Shown one piece after another: positions 4,090 to 14,662 of a DNA stretch of 49,296 nt; the stretch's first letter is position 1; each line of letters starts with the position of its first letter. Source of the DNA: Armatimonadota bacterium (lineage in GTDB: Bacteria; Armatimonadota; UBA5829; JAUSEB01); contig JAUSGG010000137.1 in assembly GCA_030649165.1 (NCBI GenBank), positions 1 through 49,296 on the forward strand, given 5' to 3'. The notes under the pieces were generated by a model, which saw only the letters and a program-made list of their open reading frames with translations, did no database searches and was not told the DNA's origin. Made by a program: the position numbers and the translations under genes.

Positions 4090-4298
4090 CCGGTCCTCCT
4101 TACTGATTAGATATTACGCGGTGGCTTGCCACAATCCTTCCCCAGCAGCCGGCGCAGGAATACAGGCAGCGAAACACAAAAGCATCTTCAGTATAGCAAA
4201 GCGCGATTCATGGTCGGCGACAGCTTGAACCGTGGAACAATTGTACGGGTGGCGACAGTCAACTGACAACCCATTGACGACCTGGGAGCTTGCTTGCA

Positions 4299-5411
4299 TT
4301 GAGAATCCTCCACATGGCGGACGTGCACCTGGACGCGCCGTATAGATTTCTGGGAACCGGCGGTGAGGCCCAGAGACAGCAGGTCAGGAATACTTTCCAG
4401 CGGACTTGCCGGCTGGCGGTCGAAGACAAGTATGACCTGATGCTGATCTCGGGTGACCTTTTCGACTCCAATATCGTCTCCGAATCGACGGCTGACTGGG
4501 TCGTCTCGCGCCTGAAGGACACGGCAATTCCCGTCTGTATATGCCCCGGCACGCACGATTGCCTCGACTCGAGGTCGGTCTACCGAGACGGGCGCATCAA
4601 GTGGCCTTCCAACACGCGGCTGTTTAACGACCCCGACCAGCAGACGTTGTCGCTGCCGGAGCTCGACATCACGATTCACGCAAGGCCGAACACCTCGACA
4701 AGGTCCTCGGAAAGTCCGATCCGAGGCATAAGGCGCGCGGGCGCTACTCGCTGGGAGGTGGCTATGGCGCACGGTTCGGCCGTGATACCGGGCAAGGTCG
4801 AGAACGCGGACTTCCCGATCGAACCTGAGGAAGTCAAATCGACCGGGCTGGACTATATCGCGCTTGGCCACTGGCATACGTGGGGCGATTATTCCGCTGG
4901 CGCCGTGAAGGCCATATATCCCGGCTCATTGGAAAAGATGGAGTTCGGCGGTGGGGGTGGAACGGTTGCGAGCCTTACGCTCTCGCCGGAGGGCGCCGCG
5001 GTCGAGAAGCGGGAGGTCGGGGCGCGCCGAATGGAGGAAGCCGCGATCTCCGTGGCCGGGATGCGCGAAGTGGGGGATTTGCCGCGGGAAATCCTGTCGC
5101 TCGCCGATCCGAACCTGGCCCTGCGCGTTACGCTTACCGGCCTATCCGATATGTCTCTGCAGATAGACCCAGCGGCGCTGGAGACCGAACTGGCGCCGGG
5201 ATTCTTCTTCCTTCAGATTCTGGACTCATCGCATCCTTTGCTTAAGGACATTCCGGACGAGTTGTTCCCGGAGCGACTGGTGATAGGCAAATACGTGCGC
5301 CTTATGGCCGAGCGCATAGAGCAGGCGCGTCACGATCCCGAATCCCTCAGCCTGCTGGAAGACGCTCTGCGGGTTGGCGTGGCCGCCCTGCAGGGCCGGA
5401 AGGTGTTTTAG
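4299..5411 (+). CDS. YhaO/SbcD-type metallophosphoesterase (DNA repair nuclease family)
   Basis: A calcineurin-like phosphoesterase of about 370 residues resembling Mre11/SbcD and Bacillus YhaO. Metal-binding motifs appear in order: ADVHLDAP (Asp8, His10), SGDLFDSN, PGTHD, AMAHGS and LGHWHTW. I prefer the TTG start at 4299, giving MRILHMADVHLD, because GGGAG lies ten bases upstream; a TTG at 4290 is in frame but has no room for a ribosome site. It abuts the ATPase gene (stop at 5411, next start at 5412), the usual nuclease-ATPase arrangement. Inferred role: an Mn-dependent nuclease acting with its ATPase partner on DNA ends or structures. Confidence 0.85.
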   Translation: MRILHMADVHLDAPYRFLGTGGEAQRQQVRNTFQRTCRLAVEDKYDLMLISGDLFDSNIVSESTADWVVSRLKDTAIPVCICPGTHDCLDSRSVYRDGRIKWPSNTRLFNDPDQQTLSLPELDITIHARPNTSTRSSESPIRGIRRAGATRWEVAMAHGSAVIPGKVENADFPIEPEEVKSTGLDYIALGHWHTWGDYSAGAVKAIYPGSLEKMEFGGGGGTVASLTLSPEGAAVEKREVGARRMEEAAISVAGMREVGDLPREILSLADPNLALRVTLTGLSDMSLQIDPAALETELAPGFFFLQILDSSHPLLKDIPDELFPERLVIGKYVRLMAERIEQARHDPESLSLLEDALRVGVAALQGRKVF

Positions 5412-7556
5412 TTGATTATCCGCAGCCTCACGCTTACCAACTATAGACGTTTCGAACGGCTCGCGCTTGAGTTTCGCGGCGGTCTGACCGTCGTCAAGGG
5501 TCCCAATGAGGCAGGAAAATCGACTGTTCTCTCGGCTCTGCTGCTGGCTCTGTTCGAAGACCCAAGGAGCCGGAAGTCCGAGTTGGACCATCGCCGCCGC
5601 TGGGGCCAGGACCGATACTTCCGCGTTGAGACGGGATTCGACTGCGACGGCCACGCTTATGCGCTCGACAAGGATTTCGAGGCGAAGACCGAGCGGCTGA
5701 CGGACATTACCACGGGAGAGGAATTGAGCGAGCGCGGCGCTGTTTCGGCGAAGTTGTCGGAGATGCTGGGCATAGGGAGTGAAGAGTTGTTCCGCTCGAC
5801 GGCCTGCGTTGCGCAGAACAGCATCGCGCTGATCACCGACAAAGGCAAACGACAGATAAGCGATCAGCTACAGGCGATAATGACGGGAGGCGCCGAGGAC
5901 ACGGCGGCCACTCAGGCTGTGGCGGCGCTCCAGGCGGAAGCGGCGAACCTGAGGCGCGGGTTCGACAGGCCGGCGTCCAATCCCGGAGCTGTGAGATTGG
6001 CCCAGGATACGGTCGCCCGGCTTCGTGAGGATCTTGCCGCGAAGGAATCAGAGATGGAGAGGGTCCGGGAGTCCGCGGACGTGTCGGAGGAGGCGGGCAG
6101 GGAGATCGCGGCCAAGTCAGAGCGGCTGTCGGCCATCCGTGCGCTCTTGTCGAACAATGAAAAACGGGCCAGGCTGTGCGCGGAGCGGGACCAGGCCGCG
6201 GCCGCGGAGGATTCGCTGCAGAAACAGATCGAGTCTGCCGAACAGCTTCGGAAATCCATCGGCGAGAAGAAGCGAGCCATCCGTGAGTTCGACAAGTTCT
6301 CGGACATGTCGGCGGACACGCCGCAGATGCTGGCCACGCTTGAGGCCACACTTAGGGTGCACGTGTCGGCAGAGGAGACCGCGGAAGAGGAACTGGAGCG
6401 CGCGGAGGCCGGAGCCAGGGCCGCGCGGACGCCGATGCGGCGCCTGCTGCTGGCGGGGTTCATCTGCTCGCTGATAATCGCTGTCGTCTTGTTCACGTCT
6501 GCCAGGTATCCGGGATTTGCCTTTTCGCTGTTGGCGGCGGGCGTGTTTTTCTACTTCCATCAATCCACGGCATCGACGGGCAAGGACGCCTCCAGAAAAG
6601 CCGACGAAGCAGAGGAGCGGCTGGACCGTATCCGCAAACAGATTCAGGTTACCTACGAGGAACAGCAGACGCTCGTAAAGTCTTCCGGCTGCGCATCCGC
6701 GGAGGAGATGCGGAAACGGTGGTCCGAATGGTCGCAATTGAAACTGGAAACTGCCCGATCGGAGGCCGAGCTTTCGGGAAAACTGGCGGGCCTGGGTTTG
6801 GACGAAATGGAGCGCGAGCGAAAGAAGCTTGCAAAGACCCGGCGCGACGCGGAGGAACGGCTGGATACCGAGGAAATGCGGACCGCCGATCTGGACGCGG
6901 TCGAGCGTCAGCAGATCGCGATCGAGGCCCAACGTCTGGAAGATGAGCTGGCTGAGCTGGAGGGACGGCGCGCGTTGGCGCAGGCGGTGATACGGACGGT
7001 CTCGCTCGATCCTGCTGAAATACACCGCGTCGAAGAGGCTCTGGCGGCGGAGGACGGGCGGCTGGCGCGCGTGGAACGACTGGCCCGGGTCTATACGATC
7101 GCGGCGGAAGGCGTAAAAGAAGCGATCGGGCGGACCTTGAGCGGCGCAAAGCCGCAATTGGAGGCCGACACTGGACGGCTGCTTGCCTCCGTCACAGGCG
7201 GCAGGTACAGCCGTGTGGAAGTGGACGAACAGTCTCTCGATTTCGCCATATACAGTAACGAAAAGGGCGCGCTCGTGGAAGCCGGCGATACGGACCTGAG
7301 CCGCGGCGCGCTCGATCAGTTCTACCTTGCCGCCCGAATTGCCCTGCTCGACCTCGTCAGCGGCGATGCTAAGCCTCCGGTTCTGCTGGACGACCCGTTC
7401 GGCGCCTTCGATGACGAGCGAGCCGGTAGGGCTATGGAAATGCTCAAGCAGATATCCCGCGAGCGACAGGCGGTCCTGTTCACCTGTTCGGACAGGTACG
7501 ACGCGTACGCGGACACCGTCATCCACCTCGGAGCGTCAGACCTCTCTGGAGGTTGA
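5412..7556 (+). CDS. YhaN/SbcC-type coiled-coil ATPase with central membrane segments
   Basis: This 714-residue SMC/Rad50-like ATPase is the partner of the preceding phosphoesterase. The Walker A motif is GPNEAGKST (residues 30-38). Long charged coiled-coil stretches flank two hydrophobic segments at about 345-382. The C-terminal half carries an LSRGALDQFYLAARIAL signature-like motif and a Walker B motif (VLLDDPFGAFDDE). It is shorter than SbcC and lacks an obvious zinc hook; the membrane segments sit where the coil apex would be, as I recall for YhaN relatives. The TTG start directly follows the upstream stop, with GGAAGG in the preceding gene as its ribosome site. It probably forms a membrane-tethered nuclease complex. 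Confidence 0.85.
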   Translation: MIIRSLTLTNYRRFERLALEFRGGLTVVKGPNEAGKSTVLSALLLALFEDPRSRKSELDHRRRWGQDRYFRVETGFDCDGHAYALDKDFEAKTERLTDITTGEELSERGAVSAKLSEMLGIGSEELFRSTACVAQNSIALITDKGKRQISDQLQAIMTGGAEDTAATQAVAALQAEAANLRRGFDRPASNPGAVRLAQDTVARLREDLAAKESEMERVRESADVSEEAGREIAAKSERLSAIRALLSNNEKRARLCAERDQAAAAEDSLQKQIESAEQLRKSIGEKKRAIREFDKFSDMSADTPQMLATLEATLRVHVSAEETAEEELERAEAGARAARTPMRRLLLAGFICSLIIAVVLFTSARYPGFAFSLLAAGVFFYFHQSTASTGKDASRKADEAEERLDRIRKQIQVTYEEQQTLVKSSGCASAEEMRKRWSEWSQLKLETARSEAELSGKLAGLGLDEMERERKKLAKTRRDAEERLDTEEMRTADLDAVERQQIAIEAQRLEDELAELEGRRALAQAVIRTVSLDPAEIHRVEEALAAEDGRLARVERLARVYTIAAEGVKEAIGRTLSGAKPQLEADTGRLLASVTGGRYSRVEVDEQSLDFAIYSNEKGALVEAGDTDLSRGALDQFYLAARIALLDLVSGDAKPPVLLDDPFGAFDDERAGRAMEMLKQISRERQAVLFTCSDRYDAYADTVIHLGASDLSGG

Positions 7557-7683: not shown

Positions 7684-7703
7684 AACTGGTATTATTACCA
7701 GTT
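7684..7703. promoter_or_regulatory. 20-bp palindromic operator, copy 1
   Basis: AACTGGTATTATTACCAGTT is palindromic except for one pair. A perfect version lies at 13829-13848 upstream of the second PEP-CTERM gene, at the same distance from its promoter. The half-site CTGGTA/TACCAG resembles GntR/FadR-family operators (TGGT-N-ACCA type). No GntR gene is in the window. Confidence 0.8.
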
Positions 7704-7730
7704 GTCATCATGGTTGAAAAGCGCTACAAC
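7702..7730 (+). promoter_or_regulatory. Promoter of PEP-CTERM gene 1
   Basis: -35 TTGTCA (7702-7707) overlaps the last two bases of the palindrome and is 17 bases from -10 TACAAC (7725-7730). The weak -10 is supported by identical placement in the second copy (TTGCAT-17-TATAAA). From 7721 to the start codon the leader is highly similar in both copies, including ACAAGCATTCAGGAGGA. Confidence 0.6.
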
Positions 7731-7774
7731 TTGTAATACAAGCATTCAGGAGGAGGAGGAGAGGAGGTGTGTAC

Positions 7775-8551
7775 ATGAGAAAGACCTTTCTTCTCGTGTG
7801 TCTGCTGGCGACGGCGGCATTGATCGCTGCGCCGGCATGGTCCGTCATCTATAGCGATAACTTCGACGCCTACGATGACGGCAACACGGATCTGACTGAC
7901 CACGGTGAATGGCAAGGCCCCGCGCCCTGGGACGCCGATCTGGAATGGAGCGGCAGTACTTACCTCGGCTATATCAGCGTGGCCCAGCGCAACGACGGAG
8001 CCACCGGAACGTCGAGCAGCTATTGGAGCCTGAACAGCGACAGCGATCCCAGCCTCGCTTATCTGACCGGTGGCGTTTATTGGGTCAGTCTCAACATCAA
8101 GGCCGGCACGGGCGTTGGCGGCAACACGTGGCAGTTCAATATGTATGACCGCGCCGTCAGCGGCGTACGAAGGAATGTCGCCCGACTCTATGGCGGCAAC
8201 GGCAACGTTCAGTACCGAGGTGGTGACGGTGGAAGCTTGGCTGGGGCCAGTACCCTGACGGGAACCGAAAGCTGGGACCACGTGCTGATCAAGATCGACA
8301 GTACGGCCAATACCGACACATTCTGGTTCAATGGTGGCCTTGTCGGGTCCATTGCTCAGAGCAACGCAGGTACGGCGAACGAGGACCTGCAGAGGGTCGA
8401 GTTTGCAACCTGGAGCGGAACCAGCCCGAATATCATCTACTTCGACAATCTGAATTTCGGGACCGAACCGGTTCCGGAGCCGGCGAGTTTAGCGGCCTTC
8501 GGTATGTTCGGACTCGGCGCGCTTGGTTTCATCAGGCGGCGCAGAGGCTGA
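7775..8551 (+). CDS. PEP-CTERM sorted surface protein 1
   Basis: This 258-residue exported protein has an N-terminal signal peptide (MRKTFLLVCLL...AAPAWS), a beta-rich body that may be a concanavalin/LamG-like fold (FDAYDDGN near the start), and a C-terminal PEP-CTERM tripartite signal: VPEP, a hydrophobic helix, and RRRRG. In PEP-CTERM bacteria this tail is recognised by exosortase for attachment or release at the cell surface, often with exopolysaccharide. The ATG at 7775 is chosen over an in-frame GTG at 7769 because the GAGGAGG site and the signal peptide fit the ATG. No exosortase is in the window. It shares its control region with the gene at 13916. Its binding partner is unknown. Confidence 0.9.
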   Translation: MRKTFLLVCLLATAALIAAPAWSVIYSDNFDAYDDGNTDLTDHGEWQGPAPWDADLEWSGSTYLGYISVAQRNDGATGTSSSYWSLNSDSDPSLAYLTGGVYWVSLNIKAGTGVGGNTWQFNMYDRAVSGVRRNVARLYGGNGNVQYRGGDGGSLAGASTLTGTESWDHVLIKIDSTANTDTFWFNGGLVGSIAQSNAGTANEDLQRVEFATWSGTSPNIIYFDNLNFGTEPVPEPASLAAFGMFGLGALGFIRRRRG

Positions 8552-8583
8552 TTCGAACGCTTAAGCAAGAAACAGGATCCTGT

Positions 8584-8617
8584 GGGCGTCGCGCCTAAGG
8601 CGGCGTCCATTCTTTTT
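8584..8617 (+). terminator. Intrinsic terminator after PEP-CTERM gene 1
   Basis: GGGCGTCGC pairs with GCGGCGTCC across a short loop and is followed by ATTCTTTTT. It lies just before the converging end of the amidohydrolase gene. Confidence 0.65.
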
Positions 8618-8623
8618 GTATGG

Positions 8624-9889
8624 CTATCGGTCCAGGCGAAAAAGCTCTCGAGCGTTGAGACGAAGTATCCTCTCAGCAATCTCGTGCGCCTCATCCAGCG
8701 TCTGATCGCCGCGTTCGACTCTATCCGCCAGCACACGCGCCACGTTCTCTCTGGCGATTACGGAATGACCGTAGACCCCCTCGACCATCCTGTAATCGCC
8801 ACCGAACGCGAGTATCTTGTTGGCCGGAATCAGGTCGAGCCACTCGTCAAGGATGTTTCTGGCAGGCGCCGCGCCGATAACGTGCATCCAGCACATATCG
8901 GGGTAGACGTTCGGGAAGTTCTTCGCTATAACCCCAAGCTCGCGAGAGTAGGGGAAACCCGCGTGGAATATGTCGAATCGGGCATTTCGGTACATCATGA
9001 ACAGGTTCGTGAGCCGCGTGGGATTAGTGTCCGCCACGTAATTGCCGTTTCCCTCTTGTATGCCCGTATGGAACTGCATGGCCAGCCCGTGCGCCTCGGC
9101 CCTTCGCACGATCTGATGGATCATGAAGTCCTGCAGCGGCTTGCACTCGTCCCACGACGCTCCTTCGCCGCGCCGGCGAAACGCCCGGTTGAAGACCTGT
9201 TCGGCCTCGTGCTGCGTCGCGTTCTCGAAGAAGATAGGCCGCGAATAGGCGAGGCCGCACTTGATGGCCACCGCGCCGTCCGCCACGAGTTTCTCGAATG
9301 TGACGTCGAGAGCGGAGACAAGGTCCTGCAGTGAATAGATGCTCTTGCCCGTTCGCTCGGCCAGCGCGTTGGCGCTCGGCCGGTTGGACACCGTCGCGAA
9401 CTCGTCGAGGTTGATGGATTGGACAAAGAAATCGGGATCGAGTCCCGGGTCCCATTTGACTATCACGCTGATCTCGATGTTGGCCTTGTCCTTCAAGACC
9501 TCGCGATACCAACCCGGACGGCGGGACTCGTCCATCTTCTTCATTACGGAGCCGTAAGTCTCGCGGCTCAAGCCTGGCAAGCCGTAAAGGTCGCGAATGG
9601 CGATATCGAGCGCCCGGCAGTACGTGGTATTGCGCGCCTTGATCCAGTAAGGCTCCAGAAGCTCCCACTTCGTCTCGGAATCCACCTGCTCGCTGCGAAC
9701 CTGGGCCAGGTCGGCGGGTGGCATGCCTGCTGAGACCAAATCGCAGGAGGCATAATGCCGAAACAAGTGCGAAATATCAGCCTTCTGGCTCAGCCAGGAC
9801 TCTTCGGAGTCGAGGTGCTCGTGCGTGTCCACCAGCGGAACCTGGCGGATGAAATCCCTTAACGATTCGAGCGCGGAACTCTGGCACAT
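8624..9889 (-). CDS. Amidohydrolase-superfamily protein (amidohydrolase 2/uronate isomerase-like)
   Basis: A 421-residue predicted TIM-barrel metal-dependent hydrolase or isomerase. The first strand ends in VDTHEHL with His23 and His25 as probable metal ligands. Later strands give candidate ligands or catalytic residues: Lys in AIKCGLAY, His in MQFHTGI, His in IFHAGFPY and Asp in FGGDYRM. This matches the amidohydrolase-2/uronate-isomerase branch; 421 residues is a usual length. The ATG at 9889 has AGGAGG about ten bases upstream. It is transcribed alone, towards the PEP-CTERM gene. The substrate cannot be read from sequence; given the glycan genes nearby, a sugar-acid or lactone role is possible. 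Confidence 0.75.
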   Translation of the reverse strand: MCQSSALESLRDFIRQVPLVDTHEHLDSEESWLSQKADISHLFRHYASCDLVSAGMPPADLAQVRSEQVDSETKWELLEPYWIKARNTTYCRALDIAIRDLYGLPGLSRETYGSVMKKMDESRRPGWYREVLKDKANIEISVIVKWDPGLDPDFFVQSINLDEFATVSNRPSANALAERTGKSIYSLQDLVSALDVTFEKLVADGAVAIKCGLAYSRPIFFENATQHEAEQVFNRAFRRRGEGASWDECKPLQDFMIHQIVRRAEAHGLAMQFHTGIQEGNGNYVADTNPTRLTNLFMMYRNARFDIFHAGFPYSRELGVIAKNFPNVYPDMCWMHVIGAAPARNILDEWLDLIPANKILAFGGDYRMVEGVYGHSVIARENVARVLADRVERGDQTLDEAHEIAERILRLNARELFRLDR

Positions 9890-9956
9890 TTATTGACTAC
9901 CTCCTGTCGAGCTTTGACCTGAGTCTAGTTTGCGGCAGGCAGGCCGTATTCGTCAA

Positions 9957-10020
9957 GCATGGGAAAAGGAGCATGGGAAAAGGAGTCGAAGGAGTCGGAC
10001 GAGTCCGACACGTCCGACAA
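9957..10020. repeat. 9-bp tandem repeat (GAGTCGGAC type), copy 1, with a 14-bp duplication
   Basis: GCATGGGAAAAGGA is repeated twice in tandem (from 9958), followed by 9-bp units GGAGTCGAA, GGAGTCGGA, CGAGTCCGA and CACGTCCGA. The same 9-bp family occurs at 19951-20020 and 42374-42412. It lies just upstream of the promoter of the TMTC-like pair. A heptamer-like CAACTAT pair follows it (10022-10036). Confidence 0.8.
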
Positions 10021-10058
10021 CAGCTATCAACTATCCACCTCAGCCATCACGTTGCGTA

Positions 10059-10087
10059 TTGGACGAGGCGTATATGTATGCTATTAT
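10059..10087 (+). promoter_or_regulatory. Promoter of the TMTC-like gene pair
   Basis: -35 TTGGAC (10059-10064) and -10 TATTAT (10082-10087) are separated by 17 bases. Transcription would start near 10094, close to the first start codon at 10109. Confidence 0.6.
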
Positions 10088-10108
10088 TGACCTGGTTGTA
10101 CTTTTCGG

Positions 10109-12109
10109 ATGGCAACAAGATCGCCGTGCGTGACAATGGCAGACTTCATACGCTCCCACCCTAAGTTGTGCGTGGGCTTCCTGTTGCTCGCGCTGACACT
10201 TGCGGCGTACTGGCGCGCGCCGATGAACGAATTCGTCGATCTGGACGACGGGCTCTATGTATATCAGAATCCGCATGTCCAGGCCGGCCTTACCACCGGC
10301 AGCGTGATCTGGGCGTTCACCGCATATCACGCGGGCAACTGGCATCCTCTGACATGGCTGTCGCACATGGTGGACTGGCAGATCTTCGGGCCCAAACCTT
10401 GGGGACCCCATCTCACGAACGTTCTTCTTCACGCGATCAACGTTCTGCTCCTTTTCCTCATACTCAGCCGGATGACGGGCTTTCTATGGCGCAGCGCGTT
10501 CGTGGCCGCGCTGTTCGCTGTACACCCCCTGCACGTGGAATCGGTTGCGTGGGTAGCGGAGCGGAAGGACGTGTTGAGCGGCCTTTTCTGGATGCTCACG
10601 ACGCTCGCGTACATTCGCTGCGTCGAGCGTCCCGGCGTCTCGCGGTACTTGCTGGTCGTCCTTCTCTTCGCTTTGGGACTGATGGCGAAACCGATGCTCG
10701 TCACTCTTCCTCTCGTTTTCCTGCTGCTGGATTACTGGCCCCTTGCGCGGTTCTCCCGGAAGGCCAAGCGCGGCGCCGCGACGGCATGGAGGCTTATCCT
10801 GGAGAAGTCTCCACTGTTCGCGTTGGCCGCCGCGTCGTGCGCACTGACCTTCCTCGCGCAGCAGAGTGGAGGGGCCGTGCAGTCGTTAGAGACATACTCT
10901 CTTGCCGTAAGAGTTGGCAACGCCCTTGCATCGTACGTTCGTTATTTGTCTATGACCGTATGGCCCGCCGGCCTTGCAGGGTTCTATCCCCATCCGGGAG
11001 ATTCCCTGCCGGTATGGCACGCGTTCGGAGCCGGATTCCTTATTCTGGTGGTTTCGATTCTTGTATTGCGAGCGTGTAAGAGCGGGTACATGACAGTCGG
11101 CTGGCTGTGGTATCTGGGGACGCTCGTCCCCGTGATAGGCGTCTTCCAAGTCGGCGGTCAGGCAATGGCCGATCGGTATACGTATATCCCCTCGATCGGT
11201 CTCTTTGTCATTGCGGCGTGGGGCGCGCCGGAGTTGCTTCAGCGGATGAAATGGCGCGAGACGCGAGCGATGTCCTTCACCGCGGCAGCGATCATCCTTG
11301 CCCTCGCAATAGCCACCTCGTATCAGGTAGGCTATTGGAGAAACACCATTACGCTGTTCCAGCGCGCTCTGGCGAAAGGCCAGGATAGCTGGATCGCGCA
11401 CAATAACCTGGGCCGCGCTCTTGCGAACCAGGGACACGTGGCCGAGGCGATGGACCATTACAATGCCGCGCTCCGCATCGCGCCGAACAACATCGGTACT
11501 CTCAATAACGTCTCCATAGCTCTGGTTGCCCAGGGAGATCTCAGCAGCGCGGTCAGTATTCTCAGGAAGGCGGAGGCCATCGACCCGGGCAGCGCCGATA
11601 CCCATTTCAACCTGGGTCATGTGCTGGCCGCGCAAGGTGACGCGCGCGCGGCAGTTCAGCAACTGATCCGTGCGGTGAACATCAACCCCGAGAACGCGGA
11701 GACACATTTTGAACTGGGCCGCCTGCTCATGAAGGCAGGCGACAAGCCGGAAGCCGCGGCCCGTTTTCGGCGGGCGATAAGCCTTCAGCCATCGCACATT
11801 GACGCCCACTACGAACTTGGCAATGTTCTCGGCCAACTGGGCAGGTTCGACGACGCCATTGCCCAGTATCGCCGGGTCCTGCGGTTGAAACCGGACAGCG
11901 GGTTTGCTCACCGGAAACTGGCGGTAGCTTTTTACTTCTCGCATCGATATGAGAATGCCTGGAGAGAGGCGCGTCTTGCCGCTCATTATGGGTGCAAGCC
12001 GCAAGAGAGCTTCCTCGCGGCGTTGTCCGCCGCGGCGCCTGATCCGGGCAGTACAAGCGCTCTGCCGGAGCGACGAATGCGGACGGACGGCGGAAAGGCG
12101 AGGCAATAG
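10109..12109 (+). CDS. TMTC-like membrane glycosyltransferase with TPR tail, paralog 1
   Basis: A 666-residue polytopic membrane protein. The first 400 residues or so contain many hydrophobic segments and GT-C-like loops: FVDLDDGLYV with an acidic motif near the N-terminus, NWHPLTWLSHM, and HPLHVESVAWVAERKDV. From about residue 430 to 635 there are about six tetratricopeptide repeats (WIAHNNLGRAL, THFNLGHVLAAQG, HYELGNVLGQLG). This is the architecture of TMTC O-mannosyltransferases and their bacterial relatives. The start at 10109 is provisional; an ATG at 10136 is also possible and neither has a clear ribosome site. It overlaps the next gene by one base (TAGTG). Inferred role: lipid-linked-sugar transfer to exported proteins. 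Confidence 0.8.
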   Translation: MATRSPCVTMADFIRSHPKLCVGFLLLALTLAAYWRAPMNEFVDLDDGLYVYQNPHVQAGLTTGSVIWAFTAYHAGNWHPLTWLSHMVDWQIFGPKPWGPHLTNVLLHAINVLLLFLILSRMTGFLWRSAFVAALFAVHPLHVESVAWVAERKDVLSGLFWMLTTLAYIRCVERPGVSRYLLVVLLFALGLMAKPMLVTLPLVFLLLDYWPLARFSRKAKRGAATAWRLILEKSPLFALAAASCALTFLAQQSGGAVQSLETYSLAVRVGNALASYVRYLSMTVWPAGLAGFYPHPGDSLPVWHAFGAGFLILVVSILVLRACKSGYMTVGWLWYLGTLVPVIGVFQVGGQAMADRYTYIPSIGLFVIAAWGAPELLQRMKWRETRAMSFTAAAIILALAIATSYQVGYWRNTITLFQRALAKGQDSWIAHNNLGRALANQGHVAEAMDHYNAALRIAPNNIGTLNNVSIALVAQGDLSSAVSILRKAEAIDPGSADTHFNLGHVLAAQGDARAAVQQLIRAVNINPENAETHFELGRLLMKAGDKPEAAARFRRAISLQPSHIDAHYELGNVLGQLGRFDDAIAQYRRVLRLKPDSGFAHRKLAVAFYFSHRYENAWREARLAAHYGCKPQESFLAALSAAAPDPGSTSALPERRMRTDGGKARQ

Positions 12110-13767
12110 TGCGCAAAGCCGGCGGAAACCTGCGACCGTGGATTGGGGCCGCAATCGCGGCTCTGACTCTTCTCTCTTACTGGCAAATCCGTGGTCACGG
12201 GTTTGTGGATTTCGATGACCCCGAATACGTCACCGAGAATCGCAACATTCGAGCAGGGCTGACTGCGAAAAGCGTGATATGGGCATTTAGCGCGACGCGC
12301 GCCGGAAACTGGCATCCTCTCACCTGGCTGTCACACATGCTCGACTACCGGATTTTCGAGCTGAATCCCGGGGGCCACCATACAACAAGCCTGATCATCC
12401 ACACGCTGAACGCCGTCCTGCTTTTCCTGCTCCTGAGCAGAATCACCGGCTTTGTCTGGCGGAGCGGGTTTGTCGCCGCCCTTTTCGCCATTCACCCGCT
12501 GCACGTCGAATCGGTGGCATGGATTTCGGAGCGAAAAGATGTCCTGAGCGCGCTTTTCTTGATACTTACGATATGGGCGTATAGCTCCTACGCCGAAAAG
12601 CCGGGCCTGCGAAGATATCTGCTCGTCGTCCTGTTCTTCGTGCTCGGCCTTATGGCTAAACCCATGCTGGTGACCCTGCCTTTCGCACTGCTCCTGCTGG
12701 ATTACTGGCCGCTGGGACGTACTCGCTCGGTGTCCGCAAGGTCCGGTTTCCGCGCTCTCGTCGTCCTGGTCCGCGAGAAGATCCCGCTTTTCGCAATTGC
12801 GGCGGCATCGTGCGCAGTCACTCTCGTTGCACAGAGGGGCGGCGAAGCCGTGGCCACATTTCAGGAGCTTTCTATCGGTGTACGTCTGGCGAACGCTGTG
12901 TCCGCGTACACGTGGTATCTGTATCGGACGCTGCTTCCGGTCCGTCTCGCGGTTCTCTACCCGCATCCCGGCCCCACACTACCGGTCTGGCGCGTCTTAG
13001 GATCAGCGCTTTTCATGGTGTTGGCAACTGTGGCGGTCCTACGCTGCGCCGCGCGGCGGCCATACCTGGCGGTAGGATGGTTATGGTACGTGGTGACTCT
13101 TATCCCGGTCATAGGTATCATACAGGTAGGCTCCCAGTCGATGGCAGACCGTTATTCCTACTTGCCTTTGATCGGCATATTCATCATGATCGCCTGGGGA
13201 ATTCCGGAACTGCTGCGCCGCGGCGGGACGTCGCGTGAAGCCGCTGTTTCAACGCCCCGCCCGTTTGTCCTGCAGCCCGCCGGCAAGCTGATCACCGCGG
13301 CAGCGCTGCTCGGCATTTTGTTGTTGTCGGTTGTCACCTACGTCCAGGCGGGTTACTGGCACAATACCATATCCCTTTTCGAACGAGCGGCGCGAGTCAC
13401 GTCCGGAAACGCGCGCGCCTACTTCCTGCTGGCAAAGGCGTATCAGGAAACGGGAGACAGAGGCAGATCGATCGCCTGCTACAGACAGGCCATTCAAGCT
13501 TATCCCGATTACGCCGAGGCGCACAACAACCTGGGCAACGCTCTGGCTCTGCGGGGAGACATCAACGAAGCCGTTTCCCATTACCGAAGAGCTCTGAGAA
13601 TCAGGCCGAACTACGGGAGGGCGCACGGCAACCTGGCGGCGGCGCTTTACCTGACGACTGACTATGAGGGAGCATGGCGAGAAGTTCGCCTCGCGAAGAG
13701 GTATGGGTATGCTCCCCATCCGAGTTTCCTGAGAGAACTCTCTAAACGGATGAGGGCGCCCGACTGA
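12109..13767 (+). CDS. TMTC-like membrane glycosyltransferase with TPR tail, paralog 2
   Basis: A 552-residue paralog of the preceding protein with the same membrane half (FVDFDDPEYV, NWHPLTWLSHM, HPLHVESVAWISERKDV). Its C-terminal part has only about three TPR units (residues about 432-535). The GTG start overlaps the upstream stop by one base, implying translational coupling and co-transcription. Tandem duplication followed by gain or loss of TPR units explains the difference. The TPR tails probably recognise acceptor proteins, so the two copies may differ in acceptor choice. Its stop codon lies in ACTGACAATCGG, a 12-bp string found again at 14870-14881. Confidence 0.8.
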   Translation: MRKAGGNLRPWIGAAIAALTLLSYWQIRGHGFVDFDDPEYVTENRNIRAGLTAKSVIWAFSATRAGNWHPLTWLSHMLDYRIFELNPGGHHTTSLIIHTLNAVLLFLLLSRITGFVWRSGFVAALFAIHPLHVESVAWISERKDVLSALFLILTIWAYSSYAEKPGLRRYLLVVLFFVLGLMAKPMLVTLPFALLLLDYWPLGRTRSVSARSGFRALVVLVREKIPLFAIAAASCAVTLVAQRGGEAVATFQELSIGVRLANAVSAYTWYLYRTLLPVRLAVLYPHPGPTLPVWRVLGSALFMVLATVAVLRCAARRPYLAVGWLWYVVTLIPVIGIIQVGSQSMADRYSYLPLIGIFIMIAWGIPELLRRGGTSREAAVSTPRPFVLQPAGKLITAAALLGILLLSVVTYVQAGYWHNTISLFERAARVTSGNARAYFLLAKAYQETGDRGRSIACYRQAIQAYPDYAEAHNNLGNALALRGDINEAVSHYRRALRIRPNYGRAHGNLAAALYLTTDYEGAWREVRLAKRYGYAPHPSFLRELSKRMRAPD

Positions 13768-13828
13768 CAATCGGACCGAGAGAATATCTTGCCTGCGATT
13801 GGCTGCAAAACAATACCACTTTCCTGAA

Positions 13829-13848
13829 AACTGGTAATATTACCAGTT
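13829..13848. promoter_or_regulatory. 20-bp palindromic operator, copy 2 (perfect)
   Basis: AACTGGTAATATTACCAGTT is a perfect 20-bp palindrome. The copy at 7684-7703 differs by one base. In both places exactly 17 bases separate the palindrome from GCGCTA of the conserved -10/leader block. Confidence 0.85.
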
Positions 13849-13875
13849 GCATTCGACTTGCGTCGGCGCTATAAA
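13847..13875 (+). promoter_or_regulatory. Promoter of PEP-CTERM gene 2
   Basis: -35 TTGCAT (13847-13852) overlaps the palindrome end, followed by a 17-base spacer and -10 TATAAA (13870-13875). The downstream leader, including ACAAGCATTCAGGAGGA and GAGAGGAGGTGTGT, matches that of PEP-CTERM gene 1. Confidence 0.7.
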
Positions 13876-13915
13876 TGGTATACAAGCATTCAGGAGGAAG
13901 GAGAGGAGGTGTGTC

Positions 13916-14662
13916 ATGAAAAGAGCGATTCTAATCGCCATTCTGTTGATTGCCATCGCGGCCCCGACTGTCTTCGCGGCGACCCCCGCCGGGATGACCA
14001 CAGTCTGGTTTGGCGATGACTTCGAGAGCCAGGCGCTCACCAGGCTCCGGTTGTTGGTCGGCTGGACCGGCGCAGGGCCGGAGAACAAGAACGGCCTCTG
14101 GACAGTCGACGGGACCAAGTCGATCAGGATGAACGGAGCTTCCGGCACGACCACGTCGTCGGAAGGCTACAACGCCGTTGGAATCGGAGGATTGTCGGCC
14201 GGCAATCTCCAGTGGGTAAGCTTTATGCTGCAGACCTCGCAGCAACTTGGCCAGACGGCAAGTGCCAGTGGGAGGGTTGTACTCACGAATTCCGCGGGCG
14301 TCGAAATGACGAGGTACCTGTTGAACAGCTCGTGGGTAGGCACTGCCGCGGCCTACACGTTTGAAGCAGCCCCGGTCGTCCCGGCGTGGCATAAGTTCGA
14401 CCTGCTGTACGATCCGACGAGTGGCGTTTTCAACTCGTATGTCGACGGTGTGTTCAACAAGACCTTCGCGGGCGCAACTGGTCAAGCGATCAACCTTGTA
14501 AAGGTCTACGACTACGGGTTCGGGCCTCAGGACCAAGTGTATTTCGACAACGTCTACGTAGGGACGGGAACGTTCACTCCGATACCTGAGCCATCCAGCC
14601 TGTTGGCGTTCGCCACGTTCGGCATTGCCGGACTCGGCTTTATCAGACGACGCAGAGCGTAA
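13916..14662 (+). CDS. PEP-CTERM sorted surface protein 2
   Basis: A 248-residue exported protein with an N-terminal signal peptide (MKRAILIAILLIA...VFA), a beta-rich body starting near DDFESQ, and a C-terminal sorting signal: IPEPSSLL, a hydrophobic helix and IRRRRA. The body resembles that of PEP-CTERM protein 1 in layout (a DNF/DFES-type start, a YFDN motif shortly before the tail), so both may be lectin-like jelly rolls. The ATG at 13916 follows GGAGG; the frame is open further upstream but that part is the promoter. It lies downstream of the TMTC-like pair but has its own promoter and operator shared with the gene at 7775, indicating a common regulon. Confidence 0.9.
   Translation: MKRAILIAILLIAIAAPTVFAATPAGMTTVWFGDDFESQALTRLRLLVGWTGAGPENKNGLWTVDGTKSIRMNGASGTTTSSEGYNAVGIGGLSAGNLQWVSFMLQTSQQLGQTASASGRVVLTNSAGVEMTRYLLNSSWVGTAAAYTFEAAPVVPAWHKFDLLYDPTSGVFNSYVDGVFNKTFAGATGQAINLVKVYDYGFGPQDQVYFDNVYVGTGTFTPIPEPSSLLAFATFGIAGLGFIRRRRA

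Follow-up and report, generated by a model that had tools for sequence, protein, structure and literature searches.

A palindrome found upstream of two PEP-CTERM genes in the window, namely the whole 49,296-nucleotide stretch of Armatimonadota DNA analyzed here, is proposed to serve as operator for a positive regulon of exported surface proteins, comprising PEP-CTERM and other signal-peptide proteins, that extends across one class of Armatimonadota. The regulon would be controlled by GerE solos, stand-alone LuxR/GerE domains of ~85 residues, through class I and class II activation. A probability of about 0.6 is assigned to this reading, which builds on features seen directly in the sequences, namely the motif, its phasing relative to promoters, the genes that it precedes, its restriction to one class, its co-occurrence with GerE solos and its presence upstream of some solo genes. 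That there is a phased regulon rich in PEP-CTERM genes is, going by the sequences, close to certain.

Two PEP-CTERM Genes in the Window Are Preceded by the Same Palindrome

The first gene (7775..8551, + strand) encodes a 258-residue signal-peptide protein and the second (13916..14662, + strand) a 248-residue signal-peptide protein, with both products containing a PEP-CTERM domain (TIGR02595; in the second, PF07589 is also matched at a borderline level). The TIGR02595 scores of 17.4 and 19 bits, respectively, are above the curated cut-off of 16, and the C-termini of the two proteins, VPEPASLAAFGMFGLGALGFIRRRRG and IPEPSSLLAFATFGIAGLGFIRRRRA, each present the PEP motif, hydrophobic stretch and basic end that define PEP-CTERM sequences. 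As an earlier note on this DNA had remarked, coding similarity is otherwise slight, being confined to the C-terminal ~76 residues (39% identity). Directly upstream of the first gene, Mre11/SbcD-like and Rad50/SbcC-like genes (weak family matches) occupy positions 4290-7556 (+ strand), and between the two PEP-CTERM genes, positions 10109-13767 (+ strand) are taken up by two consecutive paralogous membrane-protein genes, each combining a PMT_2-type part with C-terminal TPR repeats.

The palindrome that precedes the second gene (13829..13848; AACTGGTAATATTACCAGTT) is perfect, and that preceding the first gene (7684..7703; AACTGGTATTATTACCAGTT) is one base off perfect symmetry, both lying where the earlier note had placed them. 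These unstranded putative operators score 30.6 and 29.3 bits, respectively, against a position weight matrix, and are the only matches in the window when up to three mismatches are allowed, as compared to 0.00 expected (100 shuffles). Each overlaps a -35-like element on the + strand, again as claimed, namely TTGTCA (7702..7707) at the first gene and TTGCAT (13847..13852) at the second, such that both are in class II placement. The former starts at an offset of -1, like exact TTGACA elements at other sites in the genome, and the latter was assigned because the first site and those other -1 sites show the same layout. Following a 17-bp spacer, predicted -10-like elements, TACAAC (7725..7730, + strand) and TATAAA (13870..13875, + strand), are encountered. 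Both -35 elements are weak, with their first two bases coming from the end of the palindrome.

The sequence GCGCTA begins at positions 7721 and 13866, in both cases exactly 17 bp from the palindrome, and both genes are preceded by a leader (7738..7774 and 13882..13915, both + strand) that comprises ACAAGCATTCAGGAGGA (7738-7754 and 13882-13898) and a ribosome-binding site. Although spacing and leader are thus precisely as the earlier note had reported, the idea that the leader and the GCGCTA block form part of a regulon found no support, since the leader is limited to the two window genes. Searching the 5.48-Mb genome for the leader returned only two exact copies, together with one match with 3 mismatches, and the leader was accordingly dropped as a mark of the regulon. 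Given that it appears twice in a genome of this size, the shared leader most likely arose when the promoter-proximal region was duplicated locally.

The Palindrome Recurs at Intergenic Sites throughout the Genome

Across the genome, 43 exact matches to CNGGTANWWNTACCNG were found, as compared to five for a reversed-pattern control. The palindrome is thus not private to the two window genes. In all, 45 genomic sites were inspected together with their flanks, and the ~45 copies of C-C(T/C)GGTA-ATAT-TACC(A/G)GT-TTT in the genome are nearly all intergenic. When a crude ORF caller was employed, four of 42 sites fell inside called ORFs, as opposed to 82% of random positions in the same genome; with the same type of caller, the corresponding values in G005, a genome from another family of the class, were 10 of 33 sites and 84%. 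In 50 phased sites, the flank that faces the promoter reads TTT (49/50, 40/50, and 41/50 for the three positions), and the outer flank is unconserved.

Several other elements were set apart from this group. Copies of the CAGGTATCCTTACCTG type (in C155 and C159) were excluded as a GC-centered and probably different element. A look-alike palindrome with a GC-richer center, CAGGTA(TCCT/AGGA/AGGG/AGAG)TACCTG, is found in the same genome at C155:15967, C155:16015, C159:5462, C159:6388, C222:12242, and C133:3439, and is probably a different element. A palindrome upstream of an rpoN-like gene (L038) is not accompanied by a phased promoter and was taken as a chance occurrence. A phage origin for the palindrome was likewise rejected, as the two IMG/VR matches obtained are, by estimate, at about chance level. 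Finally, at three palindrome promoters of this genome (L067:2499, L065:2483, and L065:3100; in C218 and C210), the -10 element is closely followed by another palindrome, TGGTTCAGTTAACTGAACCA. One of these three promoters precedes a gene encoding a GntR-type regulator, and TGGTTCAGTTAACTGAACCA may be the operator of that regulator itself.

Sites Are Positioned at Discrete Distances from the Promoter

Within 100 bp of the sites, 35 exact TTGACA elements were detected in the genome, as compared to 2.3 expected, with 30 of the 35 starting at one of eight offsets after the 18-mer, namely -1, 14, 15, 25, 26, 35, 37, or 38 bp. In G005, 11 of 15 TTGACA elements had offsets already established in the genome containing the window (p=7e-7). 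The promoters that follow the sites are TTGACA-N16/18-TATAAT-like, and the -24/-12 GG/GC promoter that characterizes the sigma-54/PrsR PEP-CTERM box was not found 3' of them. Assuming a 17-bp spacer and a transcription start 7 bp after the -10 element, dyads were computed to lie near -43, -59, -70, and -80 to -83. Such spacing, with roughly helical-turn steps, fits what would be expected of class II and class I activator geometry, the -35 overlap seen in the window being one of four permitted placements.

That the palindrome merely arose by chance or was spread as a mobile repeat would be in keeping with the leader shared by the two window copies, as expected from local duplication. Yet the discrete phasing, the excess over control, and the unrelated flanks and downstream genes in several genera all speak against this explanation, which the reproduction of the phasing in G005 contradicts, rendering it extremely improbable. 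Likewise, were the palindrome a repressor site that occludes the promoter until relieved under some condition, then overlap with the -35 element, as at the window genes, could serve to block polymerase. Most sites, however, are found 14-38 bp upstream of the -35 element, stepped by helical turns and separated from it by a conserved T-tract, and the -35 elements at both window sites are weak, as expected of activator-dependent promoters. As such, repression is considered very unlikely. Activation rather than repression, as well as the contacts to polymerase described next, is inferred.

According to the mechanism proposed, a homodimer of the stand-alone ~85-residue LuxR/GerE protein would bind the 6-4-6 inverted repeat CTGGTA-N4-TACCAG. 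At some promoters, those of both window genes included, the dimer would abut the -35 element with its dyad near -43, allowing for class II activation through sigma. At most other promoters, the dimer would be bound at a greater distance, with dyads spaced by about one helical turn (near -59, -70, and -80 to -83), from where RNA polymerase would be recruited via the alpha subunit in class I fashion. The conserved TTT between the site and the -35 element would fit such alpha contact.

The Sites Mostly Precede Genes Encoding Exported Proteins

In the genome containing the window, the palindrome lies directly upstream of at least 14 of 38 PEP-CTERM genes (TIGR02595 matches), and the other downstream genes mostly encode long signal-peptide proteins. 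The genome-wide search that the earlier note had put forward as a check thus came out in its favor, with sites that are intergenic and precede genes for PEP-CTERM proteins or other secreted proteins. Almost all phased sites in G005 are followed by signal-peptide genes as defined by a crude rule, ~11 of these being PEP-CTERM genes. The hypergeometric p values for the regulon are ~1e-16 and ~1e-13, calculated with estimated gene totals. Moreover, the weight matrix detected sites at the same offsets before PEP-CTERM genes outside its training set (L126, +15; L132, +38; and L141, -1). Upstream of roughly half of the PEP-CTERM genes inspected, no palindrome was found, and the palindrome is therefore not the sole means of control.

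One region of the window's genome (L069; C224:7300-27200) encodes three ~1000-residue proteins, each preceded by a near-identical class I promoter and all ending with NVRTIL(F/Y)P(S/T)YTTLYIPPPP, possibly an unrecognized C-terminal signal. A fourth and a fifth promoter of like kind come next.

The Motif Is Restricted to One Class of Armatimonadota

Among 201 Armatimonadota genomes, the strict class I form of the motif was found in 14 of the 28 genomes of the class to which the window belongs and in none of the 173 genomes from elsewhere in the phylum, with the reversed control of the class I pattern yielding no matches in the same scan. In the other genomes of the class, class I sites also precede PEP-CTERM or secreted-protein genes. 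When 84,980 named species genomes were searched for the class I pattern, 17 loci were obtained, nine in Armatimonadota and the others scattered.

GerE Solos Are the Preferred Candidate Regulators

GerE solos with the recognition helix SKRTVDFHLA were identified in 23 of the 28 class genomes. Of the 23 genomes with GerE solos, 22 show enrichment of the motif, as compared to none of the five without (Fisher p=6e-5), these five genomes representing about three lineages, with four of the five also being devoid of PEP-CTERM genes. G145 contains 14 PEP-CTERM genes and neither a GerE solo nor the motif. Four genomes (G005, G107, G125, and G154) have palindromes that precede GerE-solo genes; in G107 and G125, the gene in question encodes an 81-residue protein and the site is among the few present. 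In G005, two divergent GerE-solo genes share an intergenic region that contains paired palindromes and a TTGACA element (L290; C4:16009-16926), a layout that, as read from the sequence, can be described as a compact autoregulatory arrangement. As some GerE solos are preceded by a site, autoregulation of the system is probable. Upstream of the four GerE-solo paralogs of the genome containing the window (C147:18557, C13:11556, C110:270, and C15:10493), no palindrome was found. The co-occurrence with the motif, together with the sites upstream of solo genes, suggests that a GerE solo is the protein that would bind the palindrome as a dimer.

The solos inspected (~81-102 residues) match only GerE and weaker helix-turn-helix models, with no N-terminal autoinducer-binding domain, as found in LuxR quorum-sensing receptors. 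In three solos, the PF00196 GerE domain was recognized with E values of 5e-20, 2e-21, and 2e-16. The predicted fold of a solo matches the DNA-binding domains of GerE (1fse, at 0.8 A) and RhlR, and includes the four helices of a GerE domain. A broader proposal, namely that such sensor-less solos are master activators of a putative exosortase-sorted surface proteome in this class of Armatimonadota, that they replace the sigma-54/PrsR control seen in Proteobacteria and that their output is set by their own autoregulated level, is tentative and given somewhat less than even odds.

The main rival is a binder of the Crp/Fnr family, which would act on the same regulon with the same class I/II geometry, with CTGGTA-N4-TACCAG being a diverged FNR-type site. 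It was the geometry that first brought Crp/Fnr to mind, as the palindrome is placed much like the sites of CRP/FNR in class I and class II activation and its N4 inverted-repeat frame is similar to that of an FNR site. Only two clear Crp-type helix-turn-helix proteins are encoded in the genome. Of these, protein A was rejected, as strong conservation was seen in just a single further genome of the class and the protein is missing from most motif-bearing genomes. Protein B (C97:32266-32991; 242 residues) is more common where the motif is found, the latter being enriched in 15 of 16 genomes with protein B and in seven of 12 without it (p=0.057). In the seven motif-bearing genomes that lack protein B, however, the motif persists (42 sites vs. 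12 for the control), and all seven contain GerE solos. Phased sites precede PEP-CTERM genes in the protein B-lacking genomes G020, G034, G158, and G107, and no palindrome was found upstream of the protein B genes examined. Protein B was thus also rejected, and since neither of these two proteins is conserved wherever the motif occurs, control by a Crp/Fnr-type activator is considered quite unlikely, although another Crp paralog may conceivably play this part.

The same regulon could also be served by a binder from another family, such as GntR, TetR, or a family not considered here, although this, too, seems unlikely. The earlier note had predicted a dedicated factor, possibly of the GntR/FadR type, governing a PEP-CTERM regulon whose members could be predicted; the dedicated factor and the predictable regulon are supported, but the family is not. 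Two genes encoding GntR-type proteins do have a site upstream (L034 and L067), and GntR genes were encountered only as these two possible targets. In the FadR box, TGGT and ACCA are 3 bp apart, whereas in the sites described here they are separated by 6 bp, such that the operator spacing is wrong for a FadR-type protein. In addition, GntR regulators are not recurrent neighbors of the solos or of the sites in the other class genomes inspected.

Outside the class, where GerE solos are also found in Armatimonadota, the strict palindrome is absent. Several of these outside-class solos (L362-L380) have weaker inverted repeats ~100-130 bp upstream, one example of which, CCYCGTGACATTACCRGT, is shared by seven genomes within a single genus. 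Their relation to the motif is suggestive only.

Comparison with Known Systems

How PEP-CTERM genes are controlled outside Proteobacteria has been an open question since 2006, when a sigma-54 box and PrsR/PrsK were found to be common to PEP-CTERM genes only in Proteobacteria, with further regulatory proteins and DNA motifs said to be still awaiting discovery (Haft et al., 2006; PMC1569441). The RpoN dependence of pepA was demonstrated later (PMC9850573). The system described here follows the same logic as its proteobacterial counterpart, with a dedicated upstream motif at many otherwise unrelated PEP-CTERM genes and a candidate regulator pointed to by phylogenetic profile, but differs in terms of promoter class, candidate regulator and phylum. 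Instead of -24/-12 elements, sigma-70-type TTGACA/TATAAT promoters are seen in Armatimonadota, along with a 6-4-6 palindrome placed nearby at set distances, a small GerE solo as candidate regulator and the inclusion of secreted proteins other than PEP-CTERM proteins. The palindrome is most likely the docking site of small LuxR/GerE-type activators, in which case it would represent a second route, not described before, by which PEP-CTERM genes are activated. In the open-access literature on PEP-CTERM and Armatimonadota or on exosortase and LuxR, no paper on this motif was recognized by title or by the start of the abstract. The motif is well defined and obeys a strict positional grammar, the predicted regulon of exported proteins can be used in annotating a poorly cultured phylum, and the small and easily purified candidate regulator makes the question testable.

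A close parallel in terms of DNA recognition is offered by ComA of Bacillus subtilis (PDB 2krf and 3ulq), which is among the nearest solved sequences to the solo and which recognizes inverted hexamers with a 4-nt spacer in both type I and type II activation (PMC4797271). ComA shares with the solos a LuxR/GerE-type helix-turn-helix and the frame of CTGGTA-N4-TACCAG, and the recognition helices are alike (LSKRSIEY in ComA and VSKRTVDF in the solos). Whereas the solos consist of only the DNA-binding domain, ComA additionally has the receiver domain of a response regulator, and its hexamer is TTGCGG.

In being stand-alone GerE domains of ~75-90 residues, the solos resemble GerE of B. subtilis and PedR-type proteins, with PedR being among the best NCBIfam matches. 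They are not GerE or PedR orthologs, since all NCBIfam matches are far below the equivalog cut-offs. EpsA, the XrtB/PEP-CTERM-associated regulator (TIGR03020), ranks first among NCBIfam matches for the C13 solo and near the top for two others, and is itself tied to an exosortase/PEP-CTERM system. Only the DNA-binding domain of EpsA, which has an additional ~180 residues at its N-terminus, aligns with the solos, at 48-53 bits as compared to a cut-off of 170.
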